The notes under the pieces are model-generated. The model was not told where the DNA came from. It did not search any database and saw only the letters and a program-made list of their open reading frames with translations. DNA of 33,567 bases from Nitriliruptoraceae bacterium. Lineage in GTDB: Bacteria; Actinomycetota; Nitriliruptoria; Nitriliruptorales; Nitriliruptoraceae. Where the stretch lies: NCBI GenBank assembly GCA_007120465.1, contig SKNO01000268.1, forward strand, positions 1 through 33,567, in the 5' to 3' direction. Below, piece by piece: positions 3,198 to 33,567 of this stretch (the stretch's first letter is position 1; every line of letters begins with the position of its first letter). The translations under genes were made by a program, and so were the position numbers.

Positions 3198-4279
3198 TCA
3201 GCGTGGCCGGCGGTAGAAGGGCAGCTCGACGATCTCCACCGGGAGCGGACGCCCACGGACATCGACGGCCAGGGCGGTGCCGACCTCGGCCCGGTCCACC
3301 GGCACGTACGCCATCGCGATCGGGACGCCGAGCGTCGGTGAGAGCACCCCGCTGGTGACCGTCCCGATCGGGGTGTCGCCGTCGAGCACCGGGTACCCGG
3401 CTCGTGGCGCGCGGCGGCCCTCCGCGGTCAGCCCGACCAGGGTCTCGGTCGGGCCCGTGCGGGCGACCTCCTCGAGCGCCTCCTTGCCGACGAAGTCGGT
3501 GTCGAAGGCGACGATCCGGCCGAGCCCCGCGTCGAACGGGGTGCGGTCCGGACCGAGCTCGTGGCCGTACAGCGGCATCCCCGCCTCGAGCCGGAGCGTG
3601 TCGCGGCAGGCGAGTCCGGCGGGCACCACCTCGGCGCTGCGGCCGGCCTCGAGCAGCCCGTACCACAGGTCCGCGGCCTCGTCGGCGGGCACGAACAGCT
3701 CGACGCCGTCCTCGCCGGTGTAGCCGGTGCGGGCGAGCCACACCCGGTGCTCGAGCACGTCGGTGTCGATCCCGGCGTAGTAGCGCAGCTCGTCCAGCCC
3801 GGAGAGCCCCATCGCGGCCAGCACGCCGCTGGCGGCCGGGCCCTGCAGCGCGATCAGCGCCGTCTCCTCGCTGCGGTCGACCACCTCGGTGTCGAACCCG
3901 TCGGCGCGGGCGACCAGCTCCCGGCGGACCACCTCGGCGTTGGCGGCGTTCGCGACGACGAGGTAGCGCTCCTCGCCGCGGCGGTACACCACCAGGTCGT
4001 CGAGCACCCCGCCGTCCTCGGCGCACAGCATCGAGTAGCGCGCCCGCCCGACCGTGATCGCCGATGCCTTGCCGACCAGCGCGTGGTCGAGCGCCGCCGC
4101 CGCACCGGGGCCGGTCAGCTCGAGCTCGCCCATGTGGCTGAGGTCGAACAGCCCGGCGCGCTGGCGGACGGCGTGGTGCTCGGCGAGGTCGCTGTCGTAG
4201 CGCAGCGGCATCGACCAGCCGGCGAAGTCGGTCAGGGTGGCACCGAGCTCGACGTGGACCTCGTGCAGCGGCGTCCGCT

Positions 4280-4283
<4 letters not shown>
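3198..4283 (-). CDS. gcvT: Aminomethyltransferase (glycine cleavage T protein)
   Basis: This is the T protein of the cytoplasmic glycine cleavage system. It moves the aminomethyl group from lipoyl-GcvH to tetrahydrofolate, giving 5,10-methylene-THF and ammonia. The 361-residue product has the usual length and the family N-terminus: [23 protein letters not shown] and [14 protein letters not shown], then CT-domain motifs such as [12 protein letters not shown] and [11 protein letters not shown]. The ATG at 4283 is chosen because it begins the conserved MKRTPLHE and forms an ATGA overlap with the gcvP stop codon. A longer in-frame extension to 4349 would lie inside gcvP and is arginine-rich, so it is rejected. 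It is co-transcribed with, and translationally coupled to, gcvP. Confidence 0.96.
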
Positions 4284-7183
<2,900 letters not shown>

Positions 7184-7225
7184 GATGCGAGGCTCCTTCG
7201 CCGGAACGCCGGCGTGGTCGCCTCC

Positions 7226-7456
7226 CCGCTCTGTACTGGACCTGAGAGGTTCACCGCGCCGGTGGGCGCGGCTTGCACCAACGGTGAGCCGTGCACGTGC
7301 GGGGTTCCCGGTCGGGGAACGCCCCGGCAGCGTGCTCGGCTGCTCTCCAGAGTGGCCTGCCCGATCGGTACCGGTTGCCTGAGAGATTCCCGGGAGGAGG
7401 TTGCTCCTTCGGCGGCTGGCGGCGGTGCCGTGGGTCCAGCGCTCTCCCGAACGGGA
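7226..7456 (-). ncRNA. Tandem glycine riboswitch in the gcvP leader
   Basis: Read on the minus strand, the leader has two consecutive glycine aptamers. The first starts at GGGAGAGC (about 7450) and contains CGCCGAAGGAGCAACC and AATCTCTCAGGCAACC. The second starts at CCACTCTGGAGAGC (about 7355) and ends AACCTCTCAGG, then CAGTACAGAGCGGGG. These are the conserved P1/P3b and linker sequences of the tandem gcvT element, in the right order and spacing, directly upstream of a glycine cleavage gene. Glycine binding is expected to raise gcvPT expression. Confidence 0.93.
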
Positions 7457-10224: not shown

Positions 10225-11014
10225 GGGGACCTCCTTCCTCGGACGGGGCGGCACCGGGCGCGCCGGCCCACCCCGCCGGACCGGCGTCGGGGACGCCGAG
10301 GTAGGCGGCGATGACGGCCGGGTCGCGGCGCACCTCGGCCGGGTCGCCCTCGGCGAGCACCCGACCGACGTCCATGACGACGACCCGCTCAGCGAGGAGG
10401 TCCACGGCGGGCATGACGTGCTCCACCCACAGCACCGTCAGCCCGTGCTCGTCGCGTAGCGCGCGGATCAGCGCGATGGCGTGCTCGAGCTCCCCCGGGG
10501 TCAGCCCCGCCATCGGTTCGTCGAGCAGCAGCAGGTCCGGGCGCCCCGCGAGGGCGCGGGCCAGCCCGAGCAGCCGTGTCCCGTGGAGGGTCAGGCTGGT
10601 CACCGGCGCGGCGGCCTGCTCGCGCAGTCCGACGAGGTCGAGCACCTCGTCGGCCCTGTGTAGCGCCGTCCGGTGGTCCAGGGTCTCGGCCCGACCGAAC
10701 CGTGCCCCGACCGCCACCTCCTCACGGACCGACATCGACGGGAAGCGCGTCGGCGCCTGCCGCACGGTCCCGATGCCGGCGTGGCGCACCTCGTGGACCG
10801 CCGCGCCCACGAGATCGCGGTCCCCGAACCGGAAGGTGGTGCAGGCCGTCGGGGGCACGATCCCGGCGACCAACGACAGCAGGGTCGTCTTCCCCGCCCC
10901 GTTCGGGCCGATCAGCGCGACGATCTCGCCGGTGTCCACGTCCAGGTCGATGCCGTCGACCGCGGGGAGCCCGCCGAACCGCTTGGTGAGCCCGCGCAGC
11001 GTCAACAGGGCCAT
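10208..11014 (-). CDS. livG: Branched-chain amino acid ABC transporter ATP-binding protein LivG
   Basis: A 268-residue ATPase with Walker A GPNGAGKTT, Q-loop region VRQAPTRFPSMSVREEV, and Walker B LLLLDEPMAGLTPGE followed by the LivG-type WVEHVM. The ABC signature is unusual: SLTLHGTRLLGLARAL stands where LivG proteins normally have LSYGxQRxLEIARAL. One composite ATP site may therefore be weak. The Ala/Gly/Pro-rich tail (last ~20 residues) is not part of the family core. It begins 13 nt after livJ and runs into livF, consistent with one transcript. Confidence 0.92.
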   Translation of the reverse strand: MALLTLRGLTKRFGGLPAVDGIDLDVDTGEIVALIGPNGAGKTTLLSLVAGIVPPTACTTFRFGDRDLVGAAVHEVRHAGIGTVRQAPTRFPSMSVREEVAVGARFGRAETLDHRTALHRADEVLDLVGLREQAAAPVTSLTLHGTRLLGLARALAGRPDLLLLDEPMAGLTPGELEHAIALIRALRDEHGLTVLWVEHVMPAVDLLAERVVVMDVGRVLAEGDPAEVRRDPAVIAAYLGVPDAGPAGWAGAPGAAPSEEGGPRAGGA

Positions 11015-11027
11015 CGCACCACCGTCG

Positions 11028-12233
11028 CTACGAGCCGGCCGGGGTCAGCGGCGGGGAGCGGAACACCACCTCGGGGTACCACCCCGCGCCGGGGTTGACG
11101 CCCGGCGGCGGCTCACGTTCGCGCAGGATCGTCAGCAGCGGTTCGGCTCCGGCGAGATCACCGTTGGACGTCCACGCGAGCTCCCACGCGTACCCGGGCA
11201 ACGTGAAGCGGTTCTGGCGCAGGTGCTCGGCGATCAGCGCCGGATCCTCGGTCCCGACCGCCTCGATCGCGTCGGCGACCAGCAGCACCTGCCCGTACCC
11301 GGCGAGCGCGGCGTCCTCCATGAAGCTGCCGAAGCGGTCGTGGTAGCGGGCGGCGAGCTCCTGGTAGGCCGGGTCGTCGAAGTCGGCACACGCGAGGTCG
11401 AGGTAGCGATCGAAGGCCGCGTCGCCCACCTCGGCGACGACGGCGGCGGCGGGGCTGTTGGACCCGGTGACCATCGCCGTGAGCCCGAGCTCGTCCGCCT
11501 GGCGGGTCAGCGGCAGGGCACCGGGCGGGTGCGGGGTCGCGAGGATCAGCTGCGGGTCGAGGTCCTGGAACCGGCGCAGGTAGCTGGTGAACTCCCGCTC
11601 CTGGACCGGGGCGACCTCGATCATCAGCTCCACGTCGTCGAGCGGACCGATCCGCGCGACGATCGCGTCCTCGACGGCCCGGCCCCACTCGTAGTCGGCG
11701 ACGATCGCGGCGACCCGGGTGATGCCCTCCGCCTCGAGGTAGGCGACCAGCGGGTCGATGATCGTCGACGCCGACGGCAGGCACGTGCGGAAGGTCATCC
11801 GGCTGTCGGGGGTGAGGATGCGGTCGGAACCGGCCATGACGAGGAACAGGGGCACGCCCTCCTCCTCGGCGATCCGGGCCGTGGCCAGCGCGACGTCGCT
11901 GGAGATCAGCCCGCCAGCGGCGATCACCCCGCGGCGCTCGATCAGCTCACGCAGCGCGGTGACCCCCTCCTCGGGGACCCCCTGCGTGTCGCGCTCGACG
12001 AGGGTCAGCTGCCGTCCGTCGATACCACCGGCGGCGTTGAGCTCGTCGACGGCAAGGCGCATCCCGTCGCGTGCGGGGACCCCCCAGATCGCGAAGGGAC
12101 CGGACAGCTCACCGACGAACCCGATCGCGATCGGGTCGTCCCCGGCGGTGGACTCGGGGCCCCCACCATCGGCGCAGGCGGCCAGGAGCGCACCCACGAG
12201 CAGTGCGCACCCCACCCACCGGATGCGATCCAC
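11028..12233 (-). CDS. livJ: Branched-chain amino acid ABC transporter substrate-binding lipoprotein (LivJ/LivK type)
   Basis: A 401-residue periplasmic-binding-protein fold attached to the membrane as a lipoprotein. The signal peptide ends LLAAC, with the lipidated cysteine at position 20. The mature domain opens IAIGFVGELSGPFAIWG and has ELNAAGGIDGRQLTLVERD, both typical of type-1 branched-chain amino acid receptors. The GTG at 12233 is chosen because GGAGG lies about 8 nt upstream and it gives the complete signal peptide; longer in-frame extensions would overlap the divergent DUF418 gene. It is first in the livJGFHM operon. The 177-nt gap to the divergent neighbour must hold both promoters. 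Ligand identity cannot be read from sequence. Confidence 0.9.
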   Translation of the reverse strand: MDRIRWVGCALLVGALLAACADGGGPESTAGDDPIAIGFVGELSGPFAIWGVPARDGMRLAVDELNAAGGIDGRQLTLVERDTQGVPEEGVTALRELIERRGVIAAGGLISSDVALATARIAEEEGVPLFLVMAGSDRILTPDSRMTFRTCLPSASTIIDPLVAYLEAEGITRVAAIVADYEWGRAVEDAIVARIGPLDDVELMIEVAPVQEREFTSYLRRFQDLDPQLILATPHPPGALPLTRQADELGLTAMVTGSNSPAAAVVAEVGDAAFDRYLDLACADFDDPAYQELAARYHDRFGSFMEDAALAGYGQVLLVADAIEAVGTEDPALIAEHLRQNRFTLPGYAWELAWTSNGDLAGAEPLLTILREREPPPGVNPGAGWYPEVVFRSPPLTPAGS

Positions 12234-12410
12234 GACGTCCGACCTCCGCTCACCGAGGGCCGGAAGGTAGTGGTTCCCCGGCACCTGCCACACCCTCGGG
12301 TCGGCCGTCGCACAGCCGTCGACGCGTCGCACCGCCCGTGCGGCGGACCCGTAGTCTCGACGCTTACGCAGCGGCGCGCCTCGGCGCGCATCCGATCCGC
12401 CGAGAGGACG

Positions 12411-13754
12411 ATGTCCGCACCGGACCCACCGCCACCGCCGGGGGCACCTCCGCCTCCGCCGCCTCTGCCGCCGGCACCGCCGGCACCCGCCGGACGGACG
12501 CTGGCCCCCACGGGAGCCGGGGAACGCGAACCCGTGCTCGACCTGCTGCGCGGCTTCGCGCTGCTCGGGATCCTGCTGGTCAACATCGAACTGATGCGCG
12601 GCCCCACCTTCTACGCGGTGCTGGCGGGCGACCTGCCGGAGCCGACCGAGGGCCTCGACCGGGCCGTGCAGTTCGCGATCGGGTGGCTCGCCACCGGCAA
12701 GTTCGTCTCGAGCTTCGCGATCCTGTTCGGGATCGGCACGGCGCTGATGGTGGGCCGTGCCTTCGCGGCGGGCGGTTCGGCCACCGGCCTCCTCGCGCGG
12801 CGGTACGGCTGGTTGCTGCTGATCGGCGTGGCCCACATGCTGCTGCTGTTCCCCGGCGACATCCTGTTCGTGTACGGGCTGACCGGGCTGCTCCTGCTCG
12901 CCTTCGTCTCGGTCCAGCAGCGCACGGCCCTGCTCTGGTCGGCGGTGCTGGCGGGTGGGACGGCGCTCCTGACGATCCTGGTGACGTGGGTCGGGGCCGC
13001 GCTCGCCGGCCTGACGGCGCCCACCGACGACCCCTTCATGGCCGCCTTCGAGGGGTTCTTCGCCGAACGCGGCGAGGCCGCGGTCCGCGCCCACCTCGAG
13101 GGGAGCTACCTCGATGTCATCGCGGTCAACGCCGTCGAGGCCGCCATCACGCAGGCGGGCCAGGTGTTCGTGATCCCGTGGCTGCTCGGCCTGTTCCTGT
13201 TCGGGTTCGTCGTCGGCCGGTCGGGCATCGTCGACGATCTACCCCGGTTCCGTCCGCACCTGCGGCGAGCGGCCGCGATCGGCCTGGGGCTCGGGCTCCC
13301 GCTCACCGTCGCGCAGGGGGCGGTGGATCCGATCGTCGCGCTCGGCGGGGGTGCCGGGGCGCGGGTCGGTCCTGGCCTGCTCGTGCTGGTCACCACGGGG
13401 CAACTGCTCGGCGCGCCGCTGCTCGCGGTCGGGTACCTGTCGGGGCTCGCCCTGCTGGCGCTGCGGTTCGGCGTGCTGCGTCCGCTCGCCGCGGCGGGCC
13501 GGATGGCGCTGTCGGCCTACCTCGCCCAGAGCGCGCTGGCGCTGGTCGTGTTCGCCGGGCTGGGCTGGTACGGGCGACTGACGGCCACTGGCGCCCTGGG
13601 GGTGGTGGCCGGCATCTGGGCGGTGCTGCTGGTGGCCTGCCCCCTGTGGCTGCGCCGGTTCCGCTTCGGCCCCGTCGAGTGGCTGTGGCGGACGCTGACC
13701 TACGGACGGCGGCAGCCGCTGCGCGTGTCCGCGCCACCGCGCTCGGGGACGTGA
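12411..13754 (+). CDS. DUF418-family (YeiB-like) polytopic membrane protein with proline-rich N-terminus
   Basis: The 447-residue product starts with about 30 residues rich in proline, then the family hallmark LDLLRGFALLGILLVNI. About ten hydrophobic segments follow, and the C-terminal DUF418 block includes LAAAGRMALSAYLAQS. The ATG at 12411 follows GAGAGG with suitable spacing. The frame is open far upstream, but that part lies antisense to livJ and livG and is not coding. DUF418 proteins resemble acyltransferase-3-type membrane enzymes in topology; function is not established. It is divergent from livJ and separated from the carboxylase by only 66 nt. Confidence 0.88.
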   Translation: MSAPDPPPPPGAPPPPPPLPPAPPAPAGRTLAPTGAGEREPVLDLLRGFALLGILLVNIELMRGPTFYAVLAGDLPEPTEGLDRAVQFAIGWLATGKFVSSFAILFGIGTALMVGRAFAAGGSATGLLARRYGWLLLIGVAHMLLLFPGDILFVYGLTGLLLLAFVSVQQRTALLWSAVLAGGTALLTILVTWVGAALAGLTAPTDDPFMAAFEGFFAERGEAAVRAHLEGSYLDVIAVNAVEAAITQAGQVFVIPWLLGLFLFGFVVGRSGIVDDLPRFRPHLRRAAAIGLGLGLPLTVAQGAVDPIVALGGGAGARVGPGLLVLVTTGQLLGAPLLAVGYLSGLALLALRFGVLRPLAAAGRMALSAYLAQSALALVVFAGLGWYGRLTATGALGVVAGIWAVLLVACPLWLRRFRFGPVEWLWRTLTYGRRQPLRVSAPPRSGT

Positions 13755-13820
13755 GCCCAGGGTGCTCCCGGACCTGCTCGGCTAGGTTCGCGGGCTACAC
13801 CGTCGGCCACAGAGGGTGGG

Positions 13821-19385
<5,565 letters not shown>

Positions 19386-23848: not shown

Positions 23849-25645
23849 TCACGCCACCGGCTCTGAAACGGCGAGAGGACGGTAGGTCGCCAGCCGCTTG
23901 GTGTTGGTGAGGTGGTGCCACGAGATGTTGTCGGTCGTGGAGGTACCGCCGAAGGTGCCGCAGCCGAGTGTGAACGCGGGCGGGAGGCCGCTCGTGAGCC
24001 CGCACACTCCTTGGGAGCCCGGCGAGTTCACCAGCACACGGCTCGCGGGCATCAGATCTGCGAAGCGGTTGGCGCGATCGTCGTCGGCCGTGTGCACGAT
24101 CGCTGTGTGTCCCGTGCCCATCTTGGCCAGTAGCGCCCTCGCGAGGGTCAGTGCTTCGTCGTCGCCCTGCACCGTGAAGGACGACAGGAACGGCCCCATC
24201 TTCTCGGAGGTCAGTGGGCTGTCCAGGTCCGGTTCGCCCGGCACGACCAGCACCTTGATCGGATGCTCACGCCTGATATCGAGGAAGGCCGCGATGGTGT
24301 TCGCCGCCTGACCCATGAGTTCGGGACGGAAACCGCCACCGTTATCGGTGAAGGCCGCTTCACGGAAGCGCGCCGCCTCGTCGGCGTTGAGCACGGCGGC
24401 TCCGGCGGCTTCGAGGGCGGCGTTGAATGCCGACTCGACCGTGGCGTCCACGACGAGGTTGTGCTCAGCACCGCAGATAAGACCGTGGTCGAAGGACTTG
24501 CTCGCCACGATCGAGTGGGCCGCGTGGTCGAGGTCGGCATCAGCAGCTATCCACGCTGGGGCGTTGCCCGGCCCGACGCCGATGGCCGGGGTTCCTGACC
24601 GGTAGGCGGCACGCACCATGCCCGGCCCGCCCGTTGCAAGTACGAATGCAACGTCGTCGTGAGCCATGAGCCGAGCCGTGCGATCTCTGCTGCTGCGTAC
24701 TCGCACGCTCTGCACCAGCTCGGTGGGGGCCCCGTGTCCCTCCAGCACCTCGACGACGGCGTCGGTGAACTCGGCGGCCAGCGGCAGACAGACCCGGTGG
24801 AACGACAGGATGAGCGAGTTGCGGCCCTTGAGCGCGATCAGGGTCTTGTAGATCGCAGTTGCGATGGGGTTCGTGACGGGGATCAGGCCCACGACCACGC
24901 CGACCGGCGCTGCCAGCTCCGTCACCCCGTCATCGGACGCCGGCCCGAGCGTCCCCTGCCCCGTCGCTCCTCGCAGGTACTCCCACACGCCGAGTGCGGC
25001 GAAACGGTTCTTGAATGTCTTGTCCGCCACGTTGCCGAGGTGCGTCGCCTCCACCGTCGCCGTGGCGAATGCTTCCGAACGCGCCGCCATGCTGGTCGCG
25101 AGCTCCTCGAGCAGGGCGTCGACGCGCGGTTCGTCCCAGTTGGCGAACGCAGCCTGCGCGGTGACCGCCGCTGCGACGAGGCGGTTCACCTCGGGGTCCT
25201 CGCTCTCGGCCCTCAGGTGGCCCACCAACCGCTCGTTGGTCGCCCGCAATTTGCGGGCGACGTCGCGCGCGAGCACCTGTAGCAACGTGGCGGCGATCGT
25301 CGGATGTGCCTCTCGCAGCCGTTCGAGCCCTCGCCGTGACAGCTGCCGCGCCTCGACAGCCGTCTCTGCGGTGGCGTGCGCGGACCGCGGAGAACCGTCG
25401 AGCAGGGACAGCTCGCCGAGCATCTCCCCCGACTCGACAAAGCCGAGCGTCGTGTCGGTGTCGACCTCGTGGAATGGCACCTCGAGCCGCACGACCCCTT
25501 CGTCGATCAGGTAGCAGCGGTCCCCGGACTCACCGGCTTCGAAAAGGCGCGTCTCCGCCGCGATCGTCACCGGTTCGAGGAATCCGTCCAGGATCTCGCG
25601 GTCCTGGGCGCTCAACTGCTCGAGGGGTTCGGGCAGGGTGATCAT
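23849..25645 (-). CDS. Cyclic-nucleotide-binding domain fused to CoA-acylating aldehyde dehydrogenase
   Basis: A 598-residue protein. Residues ~5-130 form a CAP_ED domain whose phosphate-binding cassette reads GELSLLDGSPRSA, keeping Glu78 and Arg87. Residues ~155-590 are an acylating aldehyde dehydrogenase like the N-terminal half of AdhE or EutE: the NAD-binding segment is PVGVVVGLIPVTNPIATAIY, catalytic Cys391 lies in SFDHGLICGAEHN, and the end reads TLGCGTFGGTSTTDNISWHH. Such enzymes interconvert acyl-CoA plus NADH with aldehyde plus NAD and CoA. No alcohol dehydrogenase half is present. The ATG at 25645 overlaps the upstream flavoprotein stop (ATGA), so the pair is co-translated. Regulation of catalysis by a cyclic nucleotide is inference from the fusion; the aldehyde substrate is unknown. 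Confidence 0.9.
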   Translation of the reverse strand: MITLPEPLEQLSAQDREILDGFLEPVTIAAETRLFEAGESGDRCYLIDEGVVRLEVPFHEVDTDTTLGFVESGEMLGELSLLDGSPRSAHATAETAVEARQLSRRGLERLREAHPTIAATLLQVLARDVARKLRATNERLVGHLRAESEDPEVNRLVAAAVTAQAAFANWDEPRVDALLEELATSMAARSEAFATATVEATHLGNVADKTFKNRFAALGVWEYLRGATGQGTLGPASDDGVTELAAPVGVVVGLIPVTNPIATAIYKTLIALKGRNSLILSFHRVCLPLAAEFTDAVVEVLEGHGAPTELVQSVRVRSSRDRTARLMAHDDVAFVLATGGPGMVRAAYRSGTPAIGVGPGNAPAWIAADADLDHAAHSIVASKSFDHGLICGAEHNLVVDATVESAFNAALEAAGAAVLNADEAARFREAAFTDNGGGFRPELMGQAANTIAAFLDIRREHPIKVLVVPGEPDLDSPLTSEKMGPFLSSFTVQGDDEALTLARALLAKMGTGHTAIVHTADDDRANRFADLMPASRVLVNSPGSQGVCGLTSGLPPAFTLGCGTFGGTSTTDNISWHHLTNTKRLATYRPLAVSEPVA

Positions 25646-27297
25646 GGTGTGCCGTCCTCTGTGGTCGTGTCCCGGTTCCCTGGCCCGTGACGCAGGTGGG
25701 CACCGATCGGCTGCGACGCGGCGGAGAGGTGCTGCGCAGCGTCGCGCCCGAGACTCAGGACCTGCGTGCGCGTCGTCGCGCGGATGCTCGCCGTGCGTCG
25801 TGAGCCTTCGAAGATGGAGATCTCGCCGAAGTGGTCGCCGGGGCCAAGATGCGCCAGTACTTCCTCCGCGCCCTCGCCGTTGACTCGCAGCACCTCGGCC
25901 TCCCCGCTCTGGAGCACGTAGAGCCGTCGGCCGATGTCTCCCTGCGTGACGATGTCCTGGCCGGCCTCGTAGACCTCTCGCCGGACCGCCATCGCCTCGT
26001 CGAGGTGGAGCCGGGCCACGTCACGGCCGACGAAGGGCGTGACGAGCCAGTCCAGGACCAGACGGAGGCGCCGGTCGACCGACGGCATGAACAACAGGAG
26101 CAGACCCCGCCAGGCGAGCCATGCCGGGAAGCCCGTGATGCCGACCCCACGGATGTGGGCGACCGCCCGACGACGACCGAGCGAGCACGCGTCACCCAAC
26201 TCCGTGAAGCGGTACCGCTGCAGCGGACGGCCGCGCACGGTGCGCAGGATGTTGCGGCCGATCCGCCAACCCGTGGCCATCGCGTACAGCGCCAGCTGCG
26301 GATTGGCCCCCCCACGCGGGTGCGGGACGGCCGCGCAGTCTCCACCGGCCCACACGTTCGACGCGTCGGGGATCTTGACGAACGGGTCTGTGACGATCCG
26401 GCCGCGCTCGTCCCGTTCGAACGGCAGGGTGTCGAACAGGGGCGACTGCGCCGTCCCGGCGGAGGAGATGATGGTCCGCGTCGCGATCCGCTCGCCGTCG
26501 TCCAGAACGGCCTCGGTCGGCGTCGCGGCCGAGACCCTTCGGCCGAGCCGGAGCTCGACACCGGTCCGTCCGGTGACGAAGTCCTGTGCCCACCGCTGCA
26601 GCCGGGGTTGGCGAACCGACAGCTCCTCCAGGATGTGCTCGCCCGGGTGGACCAGCACGACACGGACCTCGTGGGGCTCCAGGCGGGGATACTCGCGTCC
26701 CGCCATGCTCCGCAGGTAGTCGTCGAGCTCGGTGGCGACCTCGACCCCACCGAAGTTACCGCCGACGACGATGACGGTCAGCAGCCGTGCACGTTCCTCC
26801 GCGTCAGGCTCCATGTCCGCCATCTCGAGTATCCCTATTACATGGTTTCGCGCCCTCAACGCGTCGGCGTAGCCGAGAAGGACCAGGCCGTGCTCGGCCA
26901 GGCCCGGATAGCGCTCAAGATCGTCACGAGCACCCAGCCCGAACACCAGATGGTCGTAGGGGACCTCGAACTGACGGCCGTCGAGATCCCGGCTGGTGGT
27001 GACGATCCGACGGTCGAGATCGATCGCTTCCACCTCAGCGTTGTGGAACCTCGCCGGGGCGAACAGCCGCCGCGCGGGCGAGGCCACCTGCCCCGATTGG
27101 ATGCGGCTGCCCAGCATCTCCGGGACGAATCCGTGGAAGGTGTGGAAGTTCTCCCTACTGATGATCGTGAGGTCGATCTCCCGCCGGCGGACGGCCCGCT
27201 TCAGCGCCTTGACGAGGTAGACGGCGACGAAGCCGCCCCCGAGACAGACCACGTGTGGACGGCGTCTCGCCGCCTGCGGCTGTGCAGCCGCCTCCAT
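25642..27297 (-). CDS. Type II NADH dehydrogenase-like flavoprotein fused to a C-terminal cyclic-nucleotide-binding domain
   Basis: A 551-residue protein. Residues ~14-430 are an NDH-2-like flavoprotein: the FAD motif is VVCLGGGFVAVYL (16-28), the NAD(P)H motif VIVVGGNFGGVEVATEL (175-191), and the C-terminal FAD contact VWAGGDCAAVPHP (315-327). An NDH-2-like amphipathic, membrane-associating tail spans ~386-425 (GITGFPAWLAWRGLLLLFMP). Residues ~435-530 form a CAP_ED domain with FGEISIFEGSRRTAS, keeping Glu492 and Arg501. NDH-2 passes electrons from NADH to quinone at the inner membrane face without proton pumping. AGGAGG precedes the ATG at 27297. It is followed directly by the aldehyde dehydrogenase, which could supply or consume its NADH. 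A different acceptor than quinone cannot be excluded. Confidence 0.88.
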   Translation of the reverse strand: MEAAAQPQAARRRPHVVCLGGGFVAVYLVKALKRAVRRREIDLTIISRENFHTFHGFVPEMLGSRIQSGQVASPARRLFAPARFHNAEVEAIDLDRRIVTTSRDLDGRQFEVPYDHLVFGLGARDDLERYPGLAEHGLVLLGYADALRARNHVIGILEMADMEPDAEERARLLTVIVVGGNFGGVEVATELDDYLRSMAGREYPRLEPHEVRVVLVHPGEHILEELSVRQPRLQRWAQDFVTGRTGVELRLGRRVSAATPTEAVLDDGERIATRTIISSAGTAQSPLFDTLPFERDERGRIVTDPFVKIPDASNVWAGGDCAAVPHPRGGANPQLALYAMATGWRIGRNILRTVRGRPLQRYRFTELGDACSLGRRRAVAHIRGVGITGFPAWLAWRGLLLLFMPSVDRRLRLVLDWLVTPFVGRDVARLHLDEAMAVRREVYEAGQDIVTQGDIGRRLYVLQSGEAEVLRVNGEGAEEVLAHLGPGDHFGEISIFEGSRRTASIRATTRTQVLSLGRDAAQHLSAASQPIGAHLRHGPGNRDTTTEDGTP

Positions 27298-27457
27298 GGC
27301 GCCTCCTGGTCCCCGCGTCCGCTGCCGACCCGCCCGTCCGAGCAGTGGTACGCCGTTCGTTTGCGAGCCGGGTCGGTGGATCTGCGCCGCGGCGAGGTCG
27401 TATGCCCGCGACCGTCGGTGCGGCGACGCTCTCGTCCCGATCCCGCCCTCTGGGCGT

Positions 27458-27573
27458 CACCCGTAGGGTGTCGTCCGTACAGGCCGCGATCGACCCTACC
27501 AGCCTCCGACGACGCGCTGCCGGGATCGTGAGGGGCGGCGGTGGATGGGAGCGGGCCGGGCCTCTAGGGTCGA
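27458..27573. promoter_or_regulatory. Divergent control region with inverted TAGGGTCGA motif
   Basis: The 301-nt gap between the divergent flavoprotein and acyl-CoA oxidase genes has TAGGGTCGA on the plus strand (27565-27573) and its exact inverse TCGACCCTA (27490-27498). TAGGGT suits a -10 hexamer in both directions. On the plus strand a partial -35 (TGGATG, 27542-27547) lies 17 nt upstream, with a predicted leader of about 22 nt. CACCC-GTA-GGGTG (27458-27470) is a small inverted repeat containing another TAGGGT. Whether these are promoters or operator sites is not settled by sequence. Confidence 0.45.
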
Positions 27574-27598
27574 CGTACACGTGCGAGTGGAGGCGCGC

Positions 27599-30500
27599 AT
27601 GCGACCGGCCGAAGCGGCCCCGCAGCCGACAGCTGACGAACTGGCGTCCGTTCCGCTGTTCCGAGGACTGGATGTCGAGCAGCGGGCGCTGGTGGTGCAG
27701 TGGGCCGACCACATCGAGGTCGCGGCGGGCGGCACCGTCGTCGACGAGGGTGAGACCGGTAACGAGCTGTTCGTCATCCTGTCGGGAGCGGCGGACGTCG
27801 TCGTTGGAATGGACGACGGTGAACGACTCCCCGTCGGGACGCTCGGTCCGGGCGACAGCTTCGGTGAGCTAGGGGCGCTGCTGCGCGAACGACGCGCTGC
27901 CAGTGTCGTCGCGACGGCGCCCTCCCGGCTGCTGCGGATCAGCGCCACGGCGCTCACGACCCTGCTGGAACGGATCGCTCCACTCGGGCTGGCCTTGTCG
28001 CGCGTGCTGGCGCGCGACCTCACCTCGGCATTGCGGGACCGCAACGAGCGGCACGCCGACGCGACCCCCGCACGCTCGGTGGGCGGCACCAGCGAGTCCT
28101 CCCGGCTGCGCAGCGGCCTCGCCGGCTACTACCTCGCCAACGCGCGCAGCCTGCTGCGTCGGCAACGGCTCCTGCTCGACGCGGAGCGGCCTTTGTACTC
28201 GAGCGAACTCACGCTCACCGAGGATCACGTCCGAGGATGGGCCGAGCTCTTTGGGGCCCGGGCCGACACCCCGCCGGTGCCCTTCGCCTACCACGCCCTG
28301 GTCTGGGGGGACCTGCTGGTGGAGCTGGCCGACGAGCTGGGCGTGAACCTGCGCAACCTCTCGCACGAAGGCACGCGCCTGACGTTCCACCCCGACGGAC
28401 GGCGCCTCGAGCCCGGCGGGACCTACCGGGTCCAGGTGCGCACCACGCAGGTCGTGCCAACCGACCACGATCTCGTCACTCTCCACGTCGAAACCCATAT
28501 CCTCGACCAGGACGGGTCGCGGCTGGTCGCCAGCGACGACCGGTTCGTGGTCGCCAACGTCGATCCGTCCACGATCGAGGCGTTGCGACGCCGAGTCGAT
28601 GGTGACGGGTCCGGCGCCACCGGCCTGGACGACGACCCGGCACCCGCGAACCCTGACGACCCCGTGGCCAGGGAGCTCGCTCTGACGTTGGAGGACGACC
28701 TGGGTATCCGCTACGGGCGATTGACCGGCAACCTTCGCCCGGCGAATACGAGCCGCGCCGGGGCGCGGCTTCTCGGCCACGATCGCCCGTTCCTGCAGCA
28801 CCTGTGCGTCGTCGACCTCATGCTCTGTCAGCTCACCGAACAGGGCAGTGCCCCGCGCCGCCTGGAGCTTACGTTCCGAGGGCCGGTCCATCCTGGTTCG
28901 ACGGTTCACCTGCGGCTCGACGGCTCCCGTGTCGAGCTCACGGACGAGGACGACGAGCCGCTCGTCGTCGGCAACCACGAACCGGCCGAGGGCTACGAGC
29001 CGGTCGACCGGGAGCGGCGGGCGGCCGTGCCCGACCCCACGGAGGCGACCTCCGCGGATCCCGGCATCACCGCCAAGCCGGACATGACCCGTGAGCTTCC
29101 ACCGTCGACGGAGGTCGATCCAGCGCGGATGCAGCGCCTCCTCGACGGCGAGAAACGGGCGCTGCGAGCCCAGGTACGCGAGCTGCTCGCGTCACCGGAG
29201 TTCGCCCGCGACCCGAACCTGGGGCGCGACGCCTACCGCGATCGCGTCCTCGAGTGGTGCCGCCGGCTGGCTTCGGAAGGACTAGGTTCGGTCGGCTTCC
29301 CGGTCGAGGTCGGCGGCAACGACGACCCGGCTGCGGCGATCGCCGTGTTCGAGACCCTCGCAGAGCACGACCTCAGTCTCGTGGTCAAGTACGGCGTTCA
29401 GTTCGGGCTGTTCGCTGGAGCGATCCTGCACCTCGGCACCGAGCGCCACCACGAGCGCTATCTGCCGGCGGCCGGTCGCCTCGATCTGCCGGGTTGCTTC
29501 GCGCTCACCGAGCTCGGTCACGGCTCCGACGCACGCAGCATCCGGACCCGGGCGGTCTACGACCCGACCGCCCAGCGCTACGTGATCACGACCCCCGATG
29601 ACGACGCACGCAAGGAGTACATCGGCAACGCCGCCCGACACGGTCACCTCGCCGTCGTCTTCGCGCAACTCGAGGTGAACGGCGCCGAGGAGGGCGTCCA
29701 CGCCTTCGTCGTCCCGATCCGCGACGAGCGCGGCGTGCCCGTTCCAGGCGTCCGGATCGCGGACTGCGGCGACAAGATCGGGCTCAATGGCGTCGACAAC
29801 GGCCGTCTGTGGTTCGACGACGTCGAGGTGCCGTGGGACGCGCTCCTCGATCGTCACGGGCACGTCAGCCTCGACGGCGTGTACTCCAGCCCGATCGGCT
29901 CGCCGACGGCTCGGTTCTTCACGATGCTGTCCACGCTCGTCCAGGGCCGCATCAGCGTGGGACTGGCCGGCGTGAGCGCGAGCCGCTCCGCCCTCACGAT
30001 CGCCGTGCGCTACGGCGACCGGCGGCGGCAGTTCGCGCCTCGCGATGGCGAGGAGACGCCGCTGCTCGACTACCTCACCCATCAGCGACGGCTACTCGTG
30101 CCGCTGGCGACCACCTACGCGCTACATCTCGCGCTGCGCGAGCTGGTGGACGACTACCTCGCCGTCCTGCGTTCGACCGACACCTCAACGACCGAACGGA
30201 TGCGGCTGGAGACGCTGGGCGCGGGGTTGAAGGCGATCGCGACCTCGCACGCGTCCGCCACGATCCAGGAGTGCCGCGAGGCGTGCGGCGGCGCCGGCTA
30301 CCTGTGGGAGAACCGGTTCGGAGCGTTGCGGGCGGACAGCGACATCTTCACCACCTTCGAGGGCGACAACACCGTGCTCCTGCAGCTGGTCGCCAAGACA
30401 CTACTGACCGACTACAAGCAGCAGTTCGAGGACATGGACCTCGCGGCGACGGTCCGCTTCGTGGTCGGCCACGCCCTCGCTGCCGTCGTCCCCACTCCTG

Positions 30501-30991
30501 CCAGCCGGCGCACCGACGAGCAGCATCTGCGCAGCCGCACGTTCCAGCTGGAGGCATTCCGGGCGCGAGAGCAACTCCAGCTCGCGCAACTCGCAAGGCG
30601 GCTCAAGGGCACACTGGACCGTGGCTCGGACCCACATGCGGCATTCATTCGTCACCAGTCGCGGGTCGTGGCGACGGCGAGGTCGCACGTCGAACGCGTC
30701 ATGCTCGAGCGGTTCGCCGAGGCGATCGACGCCTGCGACGACCCCACTCTGGTCCGGATGCTCTCCCGCCTATGCGACCTGTATGCGCTGGCCCACCTCG
30801 AGCGCGATCGCGGCTGGTTCCTGGAGCAGGGGCTGTTCGCCGGCCCGAAGGCCCGCGCCATCGTGGGGCAGGTCGACCACTTGTGCCGGGAGCTGCGTCC
30901 CCATGCGGCCGCGCTGGTCGACGCTTTCGGGATCCCCGACGCGCTCCTCGGCGCGCCGATCGCCACCCCGGCGTCAGATCACGTGGACTGA
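27599..30991 (+). CDS. Cyclic-nucleotide-binding domain - tandem hot-dog - acyl-CoA oxidase fusion
   Basis: A 1130-residue, three-part protein. Residues ~18-135 form a CAP_ED domain with FGELGALLRERRAAS, keeping Glu90 and Arg99. Residues ~200-460 look like two MaoC-type hot-dog folds; the second has YGRLTGNLRPAN (372-383) where hydratases carry G-D-x-N-P-x-H, so the catalytic Asp and His are replaced by Asn. Residues ~500-1115 match acyl-CoA oxidases: TELGHGSDARS near 638, KIGLNGVDNGRLWFDDVEVP, RYGDRRRQFAP, and catalytic Glu921 in TTFEGDN. The expected reaction is FAD-dependent acyl-CoA oxidation to trans-2-enoyl-CoA, with O2 or another acceptor. The ATG at 27599 follows GGAGG by 5 nt; an in-frame ATG at 27545 lacks a site. 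The 3' end overlaps the convergent patatin gene by 13 bases. Confidence 0.88.
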   Translation: MRPAEAAPQPTADELASVPLFRGLDVEQRALVVQWADHIEVAAGGTVVDEGETGNELFVILSGAADVVVGMDDGERLPVGTLGPGDSFGELGALLRERRAASVVATAPSRLLRISATALTTLLERIAPLGLALSRVLARDLTSALRDRNERHADATPARSVGGTSESSRLRSGLAGYYLANARSLLRRQRLLLDAERPLYSSELTLTEDHVRGWAELFGARADTPPVPFAYHALVWGDLLVELADELGVNLRNLSHEGTRLTFHPDGRRLEPGGTYRVQVRTTQVVPTDHDLVTLHVETHILDQDGSRLVASDDRFVVANVDPSTIEALRRRVDGDGSGATGLDDDPAPANPDDPVARELALTLEDDLGIRYGRLTGNLRPANTSRAGARLLGHDRPFLQHLCVVDLMLCQLTEQGSAPRRLELTFRGPVHPGSTVHLRLDGSRVELTDEDDEPLVVGNHEPAEGYEPVDRERRAAVPDPTEATSADPGITAKPDMTRELPPSTEVDPARMQRLLDGEKRALRAQVRELLASPEFARDPNLGRDAYRDRVLEWCRRLASEGLGSVGFPVEVGGNDDPAAAIAVFETLAEHDLSLVVKYGVQFGLFAGAILHLGTERHHERYLPAAGRLDLPGCFALTELGHGSDARSIRTRAVYDPTAQRYVITTPDDDARKEYIGNAARHGHLAVVFAQLEVNGAEEGVHAFVVPIRDERGVPVPGVRIADCGDKIGLNGVDNGRLWFDDVEVPWDALLDRHGHVSLDGVYSSPIGSPTARFFTMLSTLVQGRISVGLAGVSASRSALTIAVRYGDRRRQFAPRDGEETPLLDYLTHQRRLLVPLATTYALHLALRELVDDYLAVLRSTDTSTTERMRLETLGAGLKAIATSHASATIQECREACGGAGYLWENRFGALRADSDIFTTFEGDNTVLLQLVAKTLLTDYKQQFEDMDLAATVRFVVGHALAAVVPTPASRRTDEQHLRSRTFQLEAFRAREQLQLAQLARRLKGTLDRGSDPHAAFIRHQSRVVATARSHVERVMLERFAEAIDACDDPTLVRMLSRLCDLYALAHLERDRGWFLEQGLFAGPKARAIVGQVDHLCRELRPHAAALVDAFGIPDALLGAPIATPASDHVD

Positions 30992-32748
30992 TGCTCCTGC
31001 GAAGCCAACGCCACCTCGGCGGCACGGCGTCCCTCCGCGATGGCGTCGTCCAGCCGGCCCCAATCGAGCAGGCCGAGGTCGGGCAGCTCCGGGACCACGG
31101 TCAGCCAGGCCCGGTCGCGGGCGGCATCGAGCTCGGCCCGGCTACCGAGACCGATCGAGCACGACAGCGTCTCCACCAGCGACGGGAGCGGCACCGGGGT
31201 CGACCGAGGGCGAGCACGAGGCGACCGGCGTGCACGGTCCATGCGGTACTCCCATTCCTGCTGCCAGCGGCGCATCACCTCCACGGCGACGACCGGTCCC
31301 TCTCCCGTGTCCGCCATCACGTCGACGGGCAGGTTGTTGACGACCCCGCCGTCGACCATGAGGCGTCCGGCCCACGGCATCGGTGGGGCGAGTCCGGGCA
31401 ACGACATGCTGGCGCCTACGACGTGCCGGATGGGACCTCGCCGGTGGACGAGCGTGTCGCCCGTGATCAGGTCGGCGGACACGCCGAAGCAGTCGTAGGG
31501 CAGCTCCTCGAGCTGGAGCTCGCCGAACACCCGACGAAACATCCGTTTCGCCCGGCGGGACCGGATCAGCGCGTGACGGGGCACGGTGTAGTCGGCGAAC
31601 GGGCGTCGCTCCGCGACCTCGTGGCGGAGCACGTCGGTGACCGCCTCGGGCGTGCGCCCGGTCGCGAACAACGCCGCCACAAAGGCCCCCATGCTGGTGC
31701 CGCCGTACCGATCTATCTCGATCCCCGCGTCGCGCAGCGCGGAGACCACCCCGATGTGCGCGAGGCCGCGTGCACCACCCCCCGAGAACACGATCCCGAT
31801 CGACCGACCGAACATCCGGCGGGCGACCCGCGCCGTGCCGGACCGCTGGTCGTCACCCTGGCCGATCCAGTGTCGCGCTTCCGGACGCAGCCGGTCGAGC
31901 CAGGGCGCGGTGGCGTCCGCCGTCGGTGGCCGTACGCCGACGAACGCGATGTCACGGCCGACGAGCCGGTCGTCGAGGAGCCGATCGTCGGCGGGATCCG
32001 TCGGCCGGTCGCGGGCGTCGACGACCAGGAGCAGCCGGTCGGCTTGTCGCAGACAGAACTCCCGCCAGGCGGCATCCGAGTTCGTTGAGGCGGCGAGCAG
32101 GACGACGTCGTGCACCTGCTCCCGACGGTCGAGGGCCCGACCGAGCTCCACGTCGTCGTCCGAGGCGTGGTCGGCAGCGCGGAGCCTGCCGACCGATGAC
32201 CAGCGCTCCACGGTCCGCTGCAGGTCATCGACGATCAGGTCGACCGGCAGCTCCGGTGTCATCCCGATGACCGCCACAACACCGCGCCGCTCGGGCGCGG
32301 TCCGTCGCTCGACAGTGCCAGCGAGCCGATGGCCGAGCATCGAGATCAGATTGGCGGCGAACTCGGCGTTCGCGCGAAGGAGCTGCTCGAAGTGCAGCCG
32401 GTCGAGCCGGAGCAGCTCCGTGTCTCGCATCGCCCGGACCGATGCGGTACGTGGCTGACCGGTCAGCAGGGCGAGCTCTCCGACGGCCGCACCGCCTCCC
32501 AGGACCCCGATCGTGGTCCCCGCAGGGTTGACCACCTCGAGCCGACCCGACATCACCAGATACAGCGCGTCACCTGGATCACCGTGCCGGAAGACGTGGC
32601 CACCGGCGGGGACGTGTTCGACCTCCACCACTGCGGCGATCTCGTCGCGCAGTTCGTCATCGAGTTCGGTCCAGAGCGAGACCCGACCGAGGAGCTCCGC
32701 TACGGACTGGACCGACCGTGAGGCTCCGCCATCCGGCACCGTGGCCAT
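30979..32748 (-). CDS. Cyclic-nucleotide-binding domain fused to patatin-like phospholipase (NTE type)
   Basis: A 589-residue protein. Residues ~20-135 are a CAP_ED domain with GELALLTGQPRTAS, keeping Glu91 and Arg100. A Rossmann-like NTE middle region runs from ~155 to 310. A patatin domain follows, with oxyanion loop FSGGGARGLAHIGVV (321-335), nucleophile Ser352 in GGTSMGA and catalytic Asp466 in MVDGGVVNNLP. The architecture equals that of neuropathy-target-esterase homologues such as mycobacterial Rv2565. It is expected to release fatty acids from phospholipids or lysophospholipids. GGAGGG precedes the ATG at 32748 by 6 nt. It would provide acyl chains for the neighbouring acyl-CoA oxidase after activation, but no acyl-CoA synthetase is encoded nearby. 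Confidence 0.9.
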   Translation of the reverse strand: MATVPDGGASRSVQSVAELLGRVSLWTELDDELRDEIAAVVEVEHVPAGGHVFRHGDPGDALYLVMSGRLEVVNPAGTTIGVLGGGAAVGELALLTGQPRTASVRAMRDTELLRLDRLHFEQLLRANAEFAANLISMLGHRLAGTVERRTAPERRGVVAVIGMTPELPVDLIVDDLQRTVERWSSVGRLRAADHASDDDVELGRALDRREQVHDVVLLAASTNSDAAWREFCLRQADRLLLVVDARDRPTDPADDRLLDDRLVGRDIAFVGVRPPTADATAPWLDRLRPEARHWIGQGDDQRSGTARVARRMFGRSIGIVFSGGGARGLAHIGVVSALRDAGIEIDRYGGTSMGAFVAALFATGRTPEAVTDVLRHEVAERRPFADYTVPRHALIRSRRAKRMFRRVFGELQLEELPYDCFGVSADLITGDTLVHRRGPIRHVVGASMSLPGLAPPMPWAGRLMVDGGVVNNLPVDVMADTGEGPVVAVEVMRRWQQEWEYRMDRARRSPRARPRSTPVPLPSLVETLSCSIGLGSRAELDAARDRAWLTVVPELPDLGLLDWGRLDDAIAEGRRAAEVALASQEHQST

Positions 32749-33349: not shown

Positions 33350-33567
33350 TCAGGCGGCGGTTGCTACGAGCTCGCTGAACTTCTCGGATGGCGTCATCCA
33401 GCCGAGCGTTTGGCGAGGACGTTCGTTGAGCTCGGCGGCGATGGCGTCGAGCTGAGCGTCGGTGACGGTGGAGAGGTCGAGGCTGCGGGGCAGGTACTGG
33501 CGCAGCAGCCCGTTGGTGTTCTCGTTGGTGCCGCGCTGCCAGGGTGAGTGCGGGTCGCAGAAGTAGA
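33350..33567 (-). CDS. IS30-family transposase, C-terminal part only (continues beyond window)
   Basis: The minus strand encodes 72 residues running in from the window edge: [20 protein letters not shown], then [31 protein letters not shown] and a stop at 33350. This is the end of the IS30 DDE catalytic domain, including the final Glu in NENTNG. The terminal inverted repeat should lie between about 33260 and 33349, but cannot be identified without the other end. Whether the element is intact is unknown. Confidence 0.92.

Follow-up and report, generated by a model that had tools for sequence, protein, structure and literature searches.

The window analysed here is a complete contig of 33,567 nucleotides (SKNO01000268.1; C61 in our numbering) from a metagenome-assembled genome (MAG) of a Nitriliruptoraceae bacterium (GCA_007120465.1; G000), which belongs to the class Nitriliruptoria and is 80.5% complete. 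Positions 23,849 to 32,748 hold an island of four consecutive genes, each of which fuses a cyclic nucleotide-binding (CNB) domain of the CAP_ED family to an enzyme. PF00027 domains were counted when they scored over the curated Pfam cut-off, and each of the four intact genes contains one such domain plus an enzyme domain, in agreement with an earlier note on this DNA. The domain positions also agree with that note: CAP_ED is N-terminal in the acylating aldehyde dehydrogenase (ALDH), the acyl-CoA oxidase and the patatin, and C-terminal in the protein that resembles a type II NADH dehydrogenase (NDH-2). The Pfam search of the incomplete genome gave eight PF00027 matches in total. As four of these eight lie on four consecutive genes, their clustering is not due to chance. 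The other four matches are a major facilitator superfamily (MFS) transporter, a histidine kinase, a Crp-type regulator and a CAP protein upstream of hydrogenase-like genes.

The CAP-ALDH fusion (23849..25645, minus strand; 598 aa) matches PF00027 with E=2.3e-14 and Aldedh, and its CAP_ED domain (25307..25567, minus strand) carries the cassette LGELSLLDGSPRSAHATA. The enzyme part shows the signature of acylating ALDHs, in which GVGxGN replaces the ELGG of non-acylating ALDHs. An alignment of five ALDH fusion sequences revealed that the nucleophile Cys391, Gly356-Val357-Gly358, Gly360 and Asn361 are invariant. The best-scoring models for the ALDH part are AdhE and acetylating acetaldehyde dehydrogenase, and the closest solved structures are those of acetylating (short-chain) ALDHs. 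In the predicted structure, which is of moderate confidence (mean predicted local distance difference test score, pLDDT, of 68.9), a long helix spanning residues 115–146 connects the CAP and ALDH parts.

The start of the CAP-ALDH gene overlaps the end of the gene for the NDH-2-like flavoprotein in an ATGA motif. This second fusion, NDH2-CAP (25642..27297, minus strand; 551 aa), matches PF00027 (E=5.3e-23) together with Pyr_redox_2 and, weakly, NDH2_C; its C-terminal CAP_ED domain (25726..25977, minus strand) carries the cassette FGEISIFEGSRRTASIRA. The predicted structure, again of moderate confidence (mean pLDDT 70.1), is that of a flavoprotein with two dinucleotide-binding domains and the NDH-2 fold, and it matches the structure of mycobacterial NDH2 best, with a TM-score of 0.80 by target length. 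With a cut-off of 27.7, the window protein scores 26.3 bits for the C-terminal membrane-contact domain PF22366, and its orthologue from a related genome of the class (G037) scores 34.4 bits. Among the structural matches listed for the ALDH and NDH2 fusions, none combines CAP and enzyme in one solved structure. Within the family, the nearest unfused relative of the NDH-like part is found in G028 (locus 15318-17824), where it adjoins a 379 aa dehydrogenase-like protein.

At the far side of the island lies CAP-patatin (30979..32748, minus strand; 589 aa), a fusion of the neuropathy target esterase (NTE) type with PF00027 (E=2.8e-22) and Patatin matches. Its CAP_ED domain (32368..32619, minus strand) carries the cassette VGELALLTGQPRTASVRA, and the GxSxG and DGG motifs of the catalytic dyad are in place as GTSMG and VDGG. 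The NTE P-loop-like domain PF24179 scores 25.5 bits in this protein against a cut-off of 27, and 77.2 bits in the G037 orthologue.

The genes for these three fusions also lie together elsewhere in the class. Among 66 class genomes, full-length CAP-ALDH was found in four besides G000, namely G037, Euzebya pacifica (G057), G058 and G059. In all four, NDH2-CAP lies directly upstream of CAP-ALDH and CAP-patatin beside the pair; the cluster genes were confirmed with Pfam in G037 and G057, as were two genes of G059. G057 was assigned to E. pacifica on the basis of full identity (100%) between 6 kb of its second contig and plasmid NZ_CP031166.1 of that species. Thus, patatin, NDH2 and ALDH, all bearing CAP domains, are neighbours in five genomes from three families of a single class. 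Full-length matches to the NDH2 fusion occur in the same 5 of 66 genomes as the ALDH fusion and in no others, and the two genes are always adjacent. The chance that two random sets of 5 out of 66 coincide is about 1e-7; since a single genus accounts for three of the five genomes, however, there are effectively three lineages behind this number. The search at the level of the order, which is small, brought one extra genome. The gene order is patatin-NDH2-ALDH in the three genomes of the Euzebya genus and NDH2-ALDH-patatin in G037, which represents a third family. In the window, the minus strand shows the same order as in Euzebya, and patatin and NDH2 are separated by an inserted oxidase gene that is read from the plus strand. 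The NDH2 stop and the ALDH start share 1 bp in G037; in the other four genomes of the set, the overlap is 4 bp. In E. pacifica and G058, the trio adjoins rpoB/rpoC-like genes. The cluster is real, conserved and unusual.

The inserted gene encodes the fourth fusion (27545..30991, plus strand; 1148 aa), and its 3′ end overlaps that of the patatin gene by 13 bp. It matches PF00027 (E=2.8e-18) and acyl-CoA oxidase (ACOX) domains, namely PF22924 (ACOX C-alpha1) and PF01756 (ACOX), and its CAP_ED domain (27716..27973, plus strand) carries the cassette FGELGALLRERRAASVVA. The catalytic Glu939, within TFEGDNTV, aligns with TFEGENTV of the solved acyl-CoA oxidase 1is2. Between the CAP and oxidase parts lies a region that the earlier note had overlooked, a MaoC-like hotdog of about 345 residues (residues 176-520; 28070..29104, plus strand), and the architecture is therefore CAP + hotdog + oxidase. 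In this region the window protein matches MaoC dehydratase only weakly (E=0.003), and the match is clearer (E=3.9e-5) in its relative from G022, a MAG of the same family. The active-site motif GDxNPxH is not kept and reads GNLRPAN in the window and GNLSPAH in G022, whereas free-standing MaoC homologues beside unfused oxidases retain GDRNPIH. From this difference we conclude that the fused domain has probably lost its hydratase activity. In some relatives, an unfused oxidase lies near genes for a thiolase, a ketoreductase and a free-standing MaoC protein. When contigs were scanned with a profile of the CAP-hotdog alignment, most hits were unrelated CAP domains, and the G022 contig was the sole true relative of the oxidase fusion.

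The CAP domains retain the residues expected for ligand binding. The Gly-Glu pair and the Arg of the cassette, which contact the cyclic phosphate (PMC2246266), are kept in 18 of 18 fusion CAP domains (six from ALDH, five from NDH2, five from patatin and two from oxidase fusions). We also considered that a single CAP domain had recently spread across the island by duplication. This was rejected because the CAP domains cluster by partner enzyme, which argues that each fusion is old. Outside the island, the CAP domain of the MFS transporter of G000 also keeps the cassette, and those of the Crp-type regulator, the hydrogenase-linked protein and the histidine kinase have lost Gly-Glu/Arg. Thus, cassette-keeping CAP domains were found in this incomplete genome only in the island enzymes and in one transporter. 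The hydrogenase-linked protein is encoded on contig C88 (about 3617-7267), just upstream of genes that resemble hydrogenase subunits when read by eye. A further genome of the same family (G014) contains 17 CAP_ED matches, many of them in short proteins.

One class III cyclase was identified in the 80.5% of G000 available to the search (88.5 bits against a cut-off of 21.9), and further cyclases or targets may lie in the remainder. It is encoded on contig C176 (about 11194-16142) and has a long C-terminal extension. Its gene lies just before that of the cassette-keeping MFS transporter, whose CAP_ED domain is C-terminal, and the two genes share 4 bp.

Because of the fusions, their conserved linkage and the retained binding and catalytic motifs, we favour a joint tuning of the clustered enzymes by a cyclic nucleotide, with control by a single, shared second messenger as the best interpretation. 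The position of the class III cyclase gene next to the MFS-CAP gene also fits this view. We hypothesise, with a probability of roughly 0.55, that the core trio of patatin, NDH2 and acylating ALDH, each equipped with its own CNB domain, is tuned directly by one small molecule, most likely cAMP, rather than via transcription. We infer the identity of the ligand, the direction of control, the substrates and the existence of a single joint pathway. When the level of the ligand changes, the CAP barrel and the helix between CAP and enzyme would shift, and this movement could affect the activity or assembly of the enzyme or its contact with the membrane. The flow would most likely be oxidative. The patatin would act on membrane lipid, the ALDH would convert aldehyde, CoA and NAD+ to acyl-CoA and NADH, and NDH2 would pass the electrons of NADH to quinone. 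Coupling to NDH2 would be expected to drive the ALDH in the NADH-producing direction, from aldehyde to acyl-CoA. In G000, the additional CAP-hotdog-acyl-CoA oxidase could extend this set to acyl-CoA oxidation. A more far-reaching proposal is that of a protein-level regulon, in which one cyclic nucleotide would jointly control conserved metabolic enzymes through built-in sensors that replace a CRP-type transcription factor; we hold this tentatively and give it somewhat less than even odds.

Several observations weigh against joint control of the trio. The cluster is limited to three independent lineages, and a fourth genome of the E. pacifica genus (G060) is without the ALDH and NDH2 fusions in the search of the 66 class genomes, which indicates that the module is dispensable. 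All of the fusions are also encountered apart from the trio, so that the parts need not work together. CAP-ALDH was found without its partner fusions in G091, outside the class and in a class of only three genomes. NDH2-CAP is present in Rhodobacter sp. CZR27 (by Pfam) and in Gemmatirosa kalamazoonensis (by alignment), in neither case with a partner fusion within about 8 kb, and CAP-patatin is also seen in Solirubrobacterales loci. The oxidase fusion is missing from the other four trio clusters (G037, G057, G058 and G059). It does occur near a contig end in G022, where the ALDH and NDH2 fusions were not found, an absence that is likely but not certain at 88% completeness and with the contig ending nearby. 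Moreover, the residues that follow the cassette Arg vary (TA, SA and AA, and LG in the G037 patatin), so that ligand or affinity may differ between the fusion proteins. Finally, the likeness of the ALDH to acetylating enzymes gives no hint of long-chain fatty aldehydes as substrates.

We therefore rejected the idea that all four genes form one conserved unit, as the other clusters lack the oxidase and as it occurs in G022, where neither the ALDH nor the NDH2 fusion was found. The module of four fusions that the earlier note had proposed is upheld as a conserved gene unit for patatin, NDH2 and ALDH, which are neighbours in five genomes and keep their binding cassettes, and not for the oxidase, which only the window cluster among these five contains. 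That note had stated that independent occurrence of the fusions would refute its idea; such occurrence is partly seen, in G091, Rhodobacter, Gemmatirosa and G022, yet the trio is conserved. The four-step lipid pathway suggested there goes beyond the evidence. CAP-ALDH was also sought on plasmids; the one plasmid record that covered more than 80% of the query, from the cyanobacterium Kovacikia, contains an AdhE-type gene that lacks a CAP domain.

The scattered occurrence of the fusions would also be expected if the CAP domains bind nucleotide but regulate the enzymes separately, in different pathways, and the genes are co-located by a shared expression programme or by movement as a block. The composition of the island is in line with such movement: its GC content is 70.0% compared with 73.4% in the remaining contig, its tetranucleotide profile differs slightly, and it was not found in three genus mates, one of which is only 53% complete. 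Next to the island, the contig ends within a fragment of an integrase core (rve_3; 33350-33565, minus strand) that scores 24.2 bits, below the curated cut-off. A transfer of the island as a block is plausible from these features. Separate regulation fits less well with the retention of the trio in three families, with its position beside rpoB/rpoC-like genes in E. pacifica and G058, and with the NDH2-ALDH overlap, which persists even where the patatin gene has switched sides, and we regard it as rather unlikely. Alternatively, the task of the CAP domains could be oligomerisation or docking, or they could recognise a different ligand, and in either case they would be unresponsive to cAMP and cGMP. 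The helix at residues 115–146 of the modelled ALDH would equally suit a dimerisation device, and some CNB domains are known to take haem or chlorophenolacetic acid (PMC2246266). We consider this improbable in view of the phosphate-contacting Gly-Glu and Arg, which are kept throughout despite an identity of only about 40-50% between most window CAPs and their class orthologues. A different role in metabolism is suggested by the acetylating models and structures that the ALDH resembles most: the module may handle acetaldehyde, for instance from ethanolamine head groups, with the patatin deacylating phospholipid, a EutE-like ALDH acting on the aldehyde and NDH2 reoxidising NADH. No ethanolamine-utilisation gene was recognised beside the trio clusters, whose neighbours were read by eye only, and the specificity of an ALDH cannot be read from its sequence; we give this role little credence. 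Direct tuning of the trio by one cyclic nucleotide remains the reading that we prefer.

A mis-join of the contig is conceivable. As the cluster is also present in the Euzebya genomes and in G037, the island itself is independent of this doubt. Outside the island, open reading frames (ORFs) were called with a simple ORF scorer and not a trained gene finder. A gene at 13821-19385 (plus strand) encodes a single-chain carboxylase of 1854 aa with biotin carboxylase, biotin carboxyl carrier protein (BCCP), ACC_central and carboxyl transferase domains, a multidomain layout that is usual for eukaryotic acetyl-CoA carboxylase. It is preceded by a 1147 aa ORF (10311-13754, plus strand) that matches DUF418 at residues 969-1132 only and has a long N-terminal part without a Pfam match.

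To our knowledge, most effects of bacterial cyclic nucleotides run via transcription factors, and there are few documented examples of metabolic enzymes that they control directly. If jointly controlled, the trio of sensor-bearing enzymes would be a clear case of such control. The presence of the cluster in the cultured species E. pacifica makes binding, activity and a deletion phenotype measurable.

Comparing the fusions with known CNB proteins reveals different degrees of novelty. The CAP-acylating-ALDH and CAP-hotdog-oxidase architectures do not appear in the classification table of CNB proteins from 2007 (PMC2246266), and we found no report of either in the open-access literature, which is weak evidence of absence. 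The earlier note had regarded the patatin fusion as the sole known arrangement of the four. This does not hold, as Kannan et al. 2007 (PMC2246266) list Bact_Pyrredox (Table 1, no. 13), an N-terminal pyridine nucleotide-disulphide oxidoreductase followed by tandem CNB domains. NDH2-CAP shares with it the N-terminal oxidoreductase joined to a CNB domain with a canonical cassette and is thus a variant of a known architecture. It differs in having one CNB domain and an NDH-2-like enzyme, and in its position beside other CNB fusions. The window patatin has the layout of the well-known NTE-type CNB-patatins, a CNB domain and then a patatin with GxSxG and DGG, but is genetically linked to NDH2-CAP and CAP-ALDH. 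A fused sensor that gates an enzyme directly has a counterpart in the mycobacterial acetyltransferase Pat, which is controlled by its cAMP-binding CNB domain. The NCBIfam Pat model matches here through the CAP part only, and unlike Pat, which modifies other proteins, the island carries its CNB domains on the metabolic enzymes themselves. The calcium-regulated NDH-2 enzymes of plants and fungi may serve as a lead here, since they also represent an NDH-2 to which a second-messenger domain has been added. In those enzymes the messenger is Ca2+ and the sensor an EF-hand, whereas in NDH2-CAP the corresponding pair would be a cyclic nucleotide and CAP_ED.

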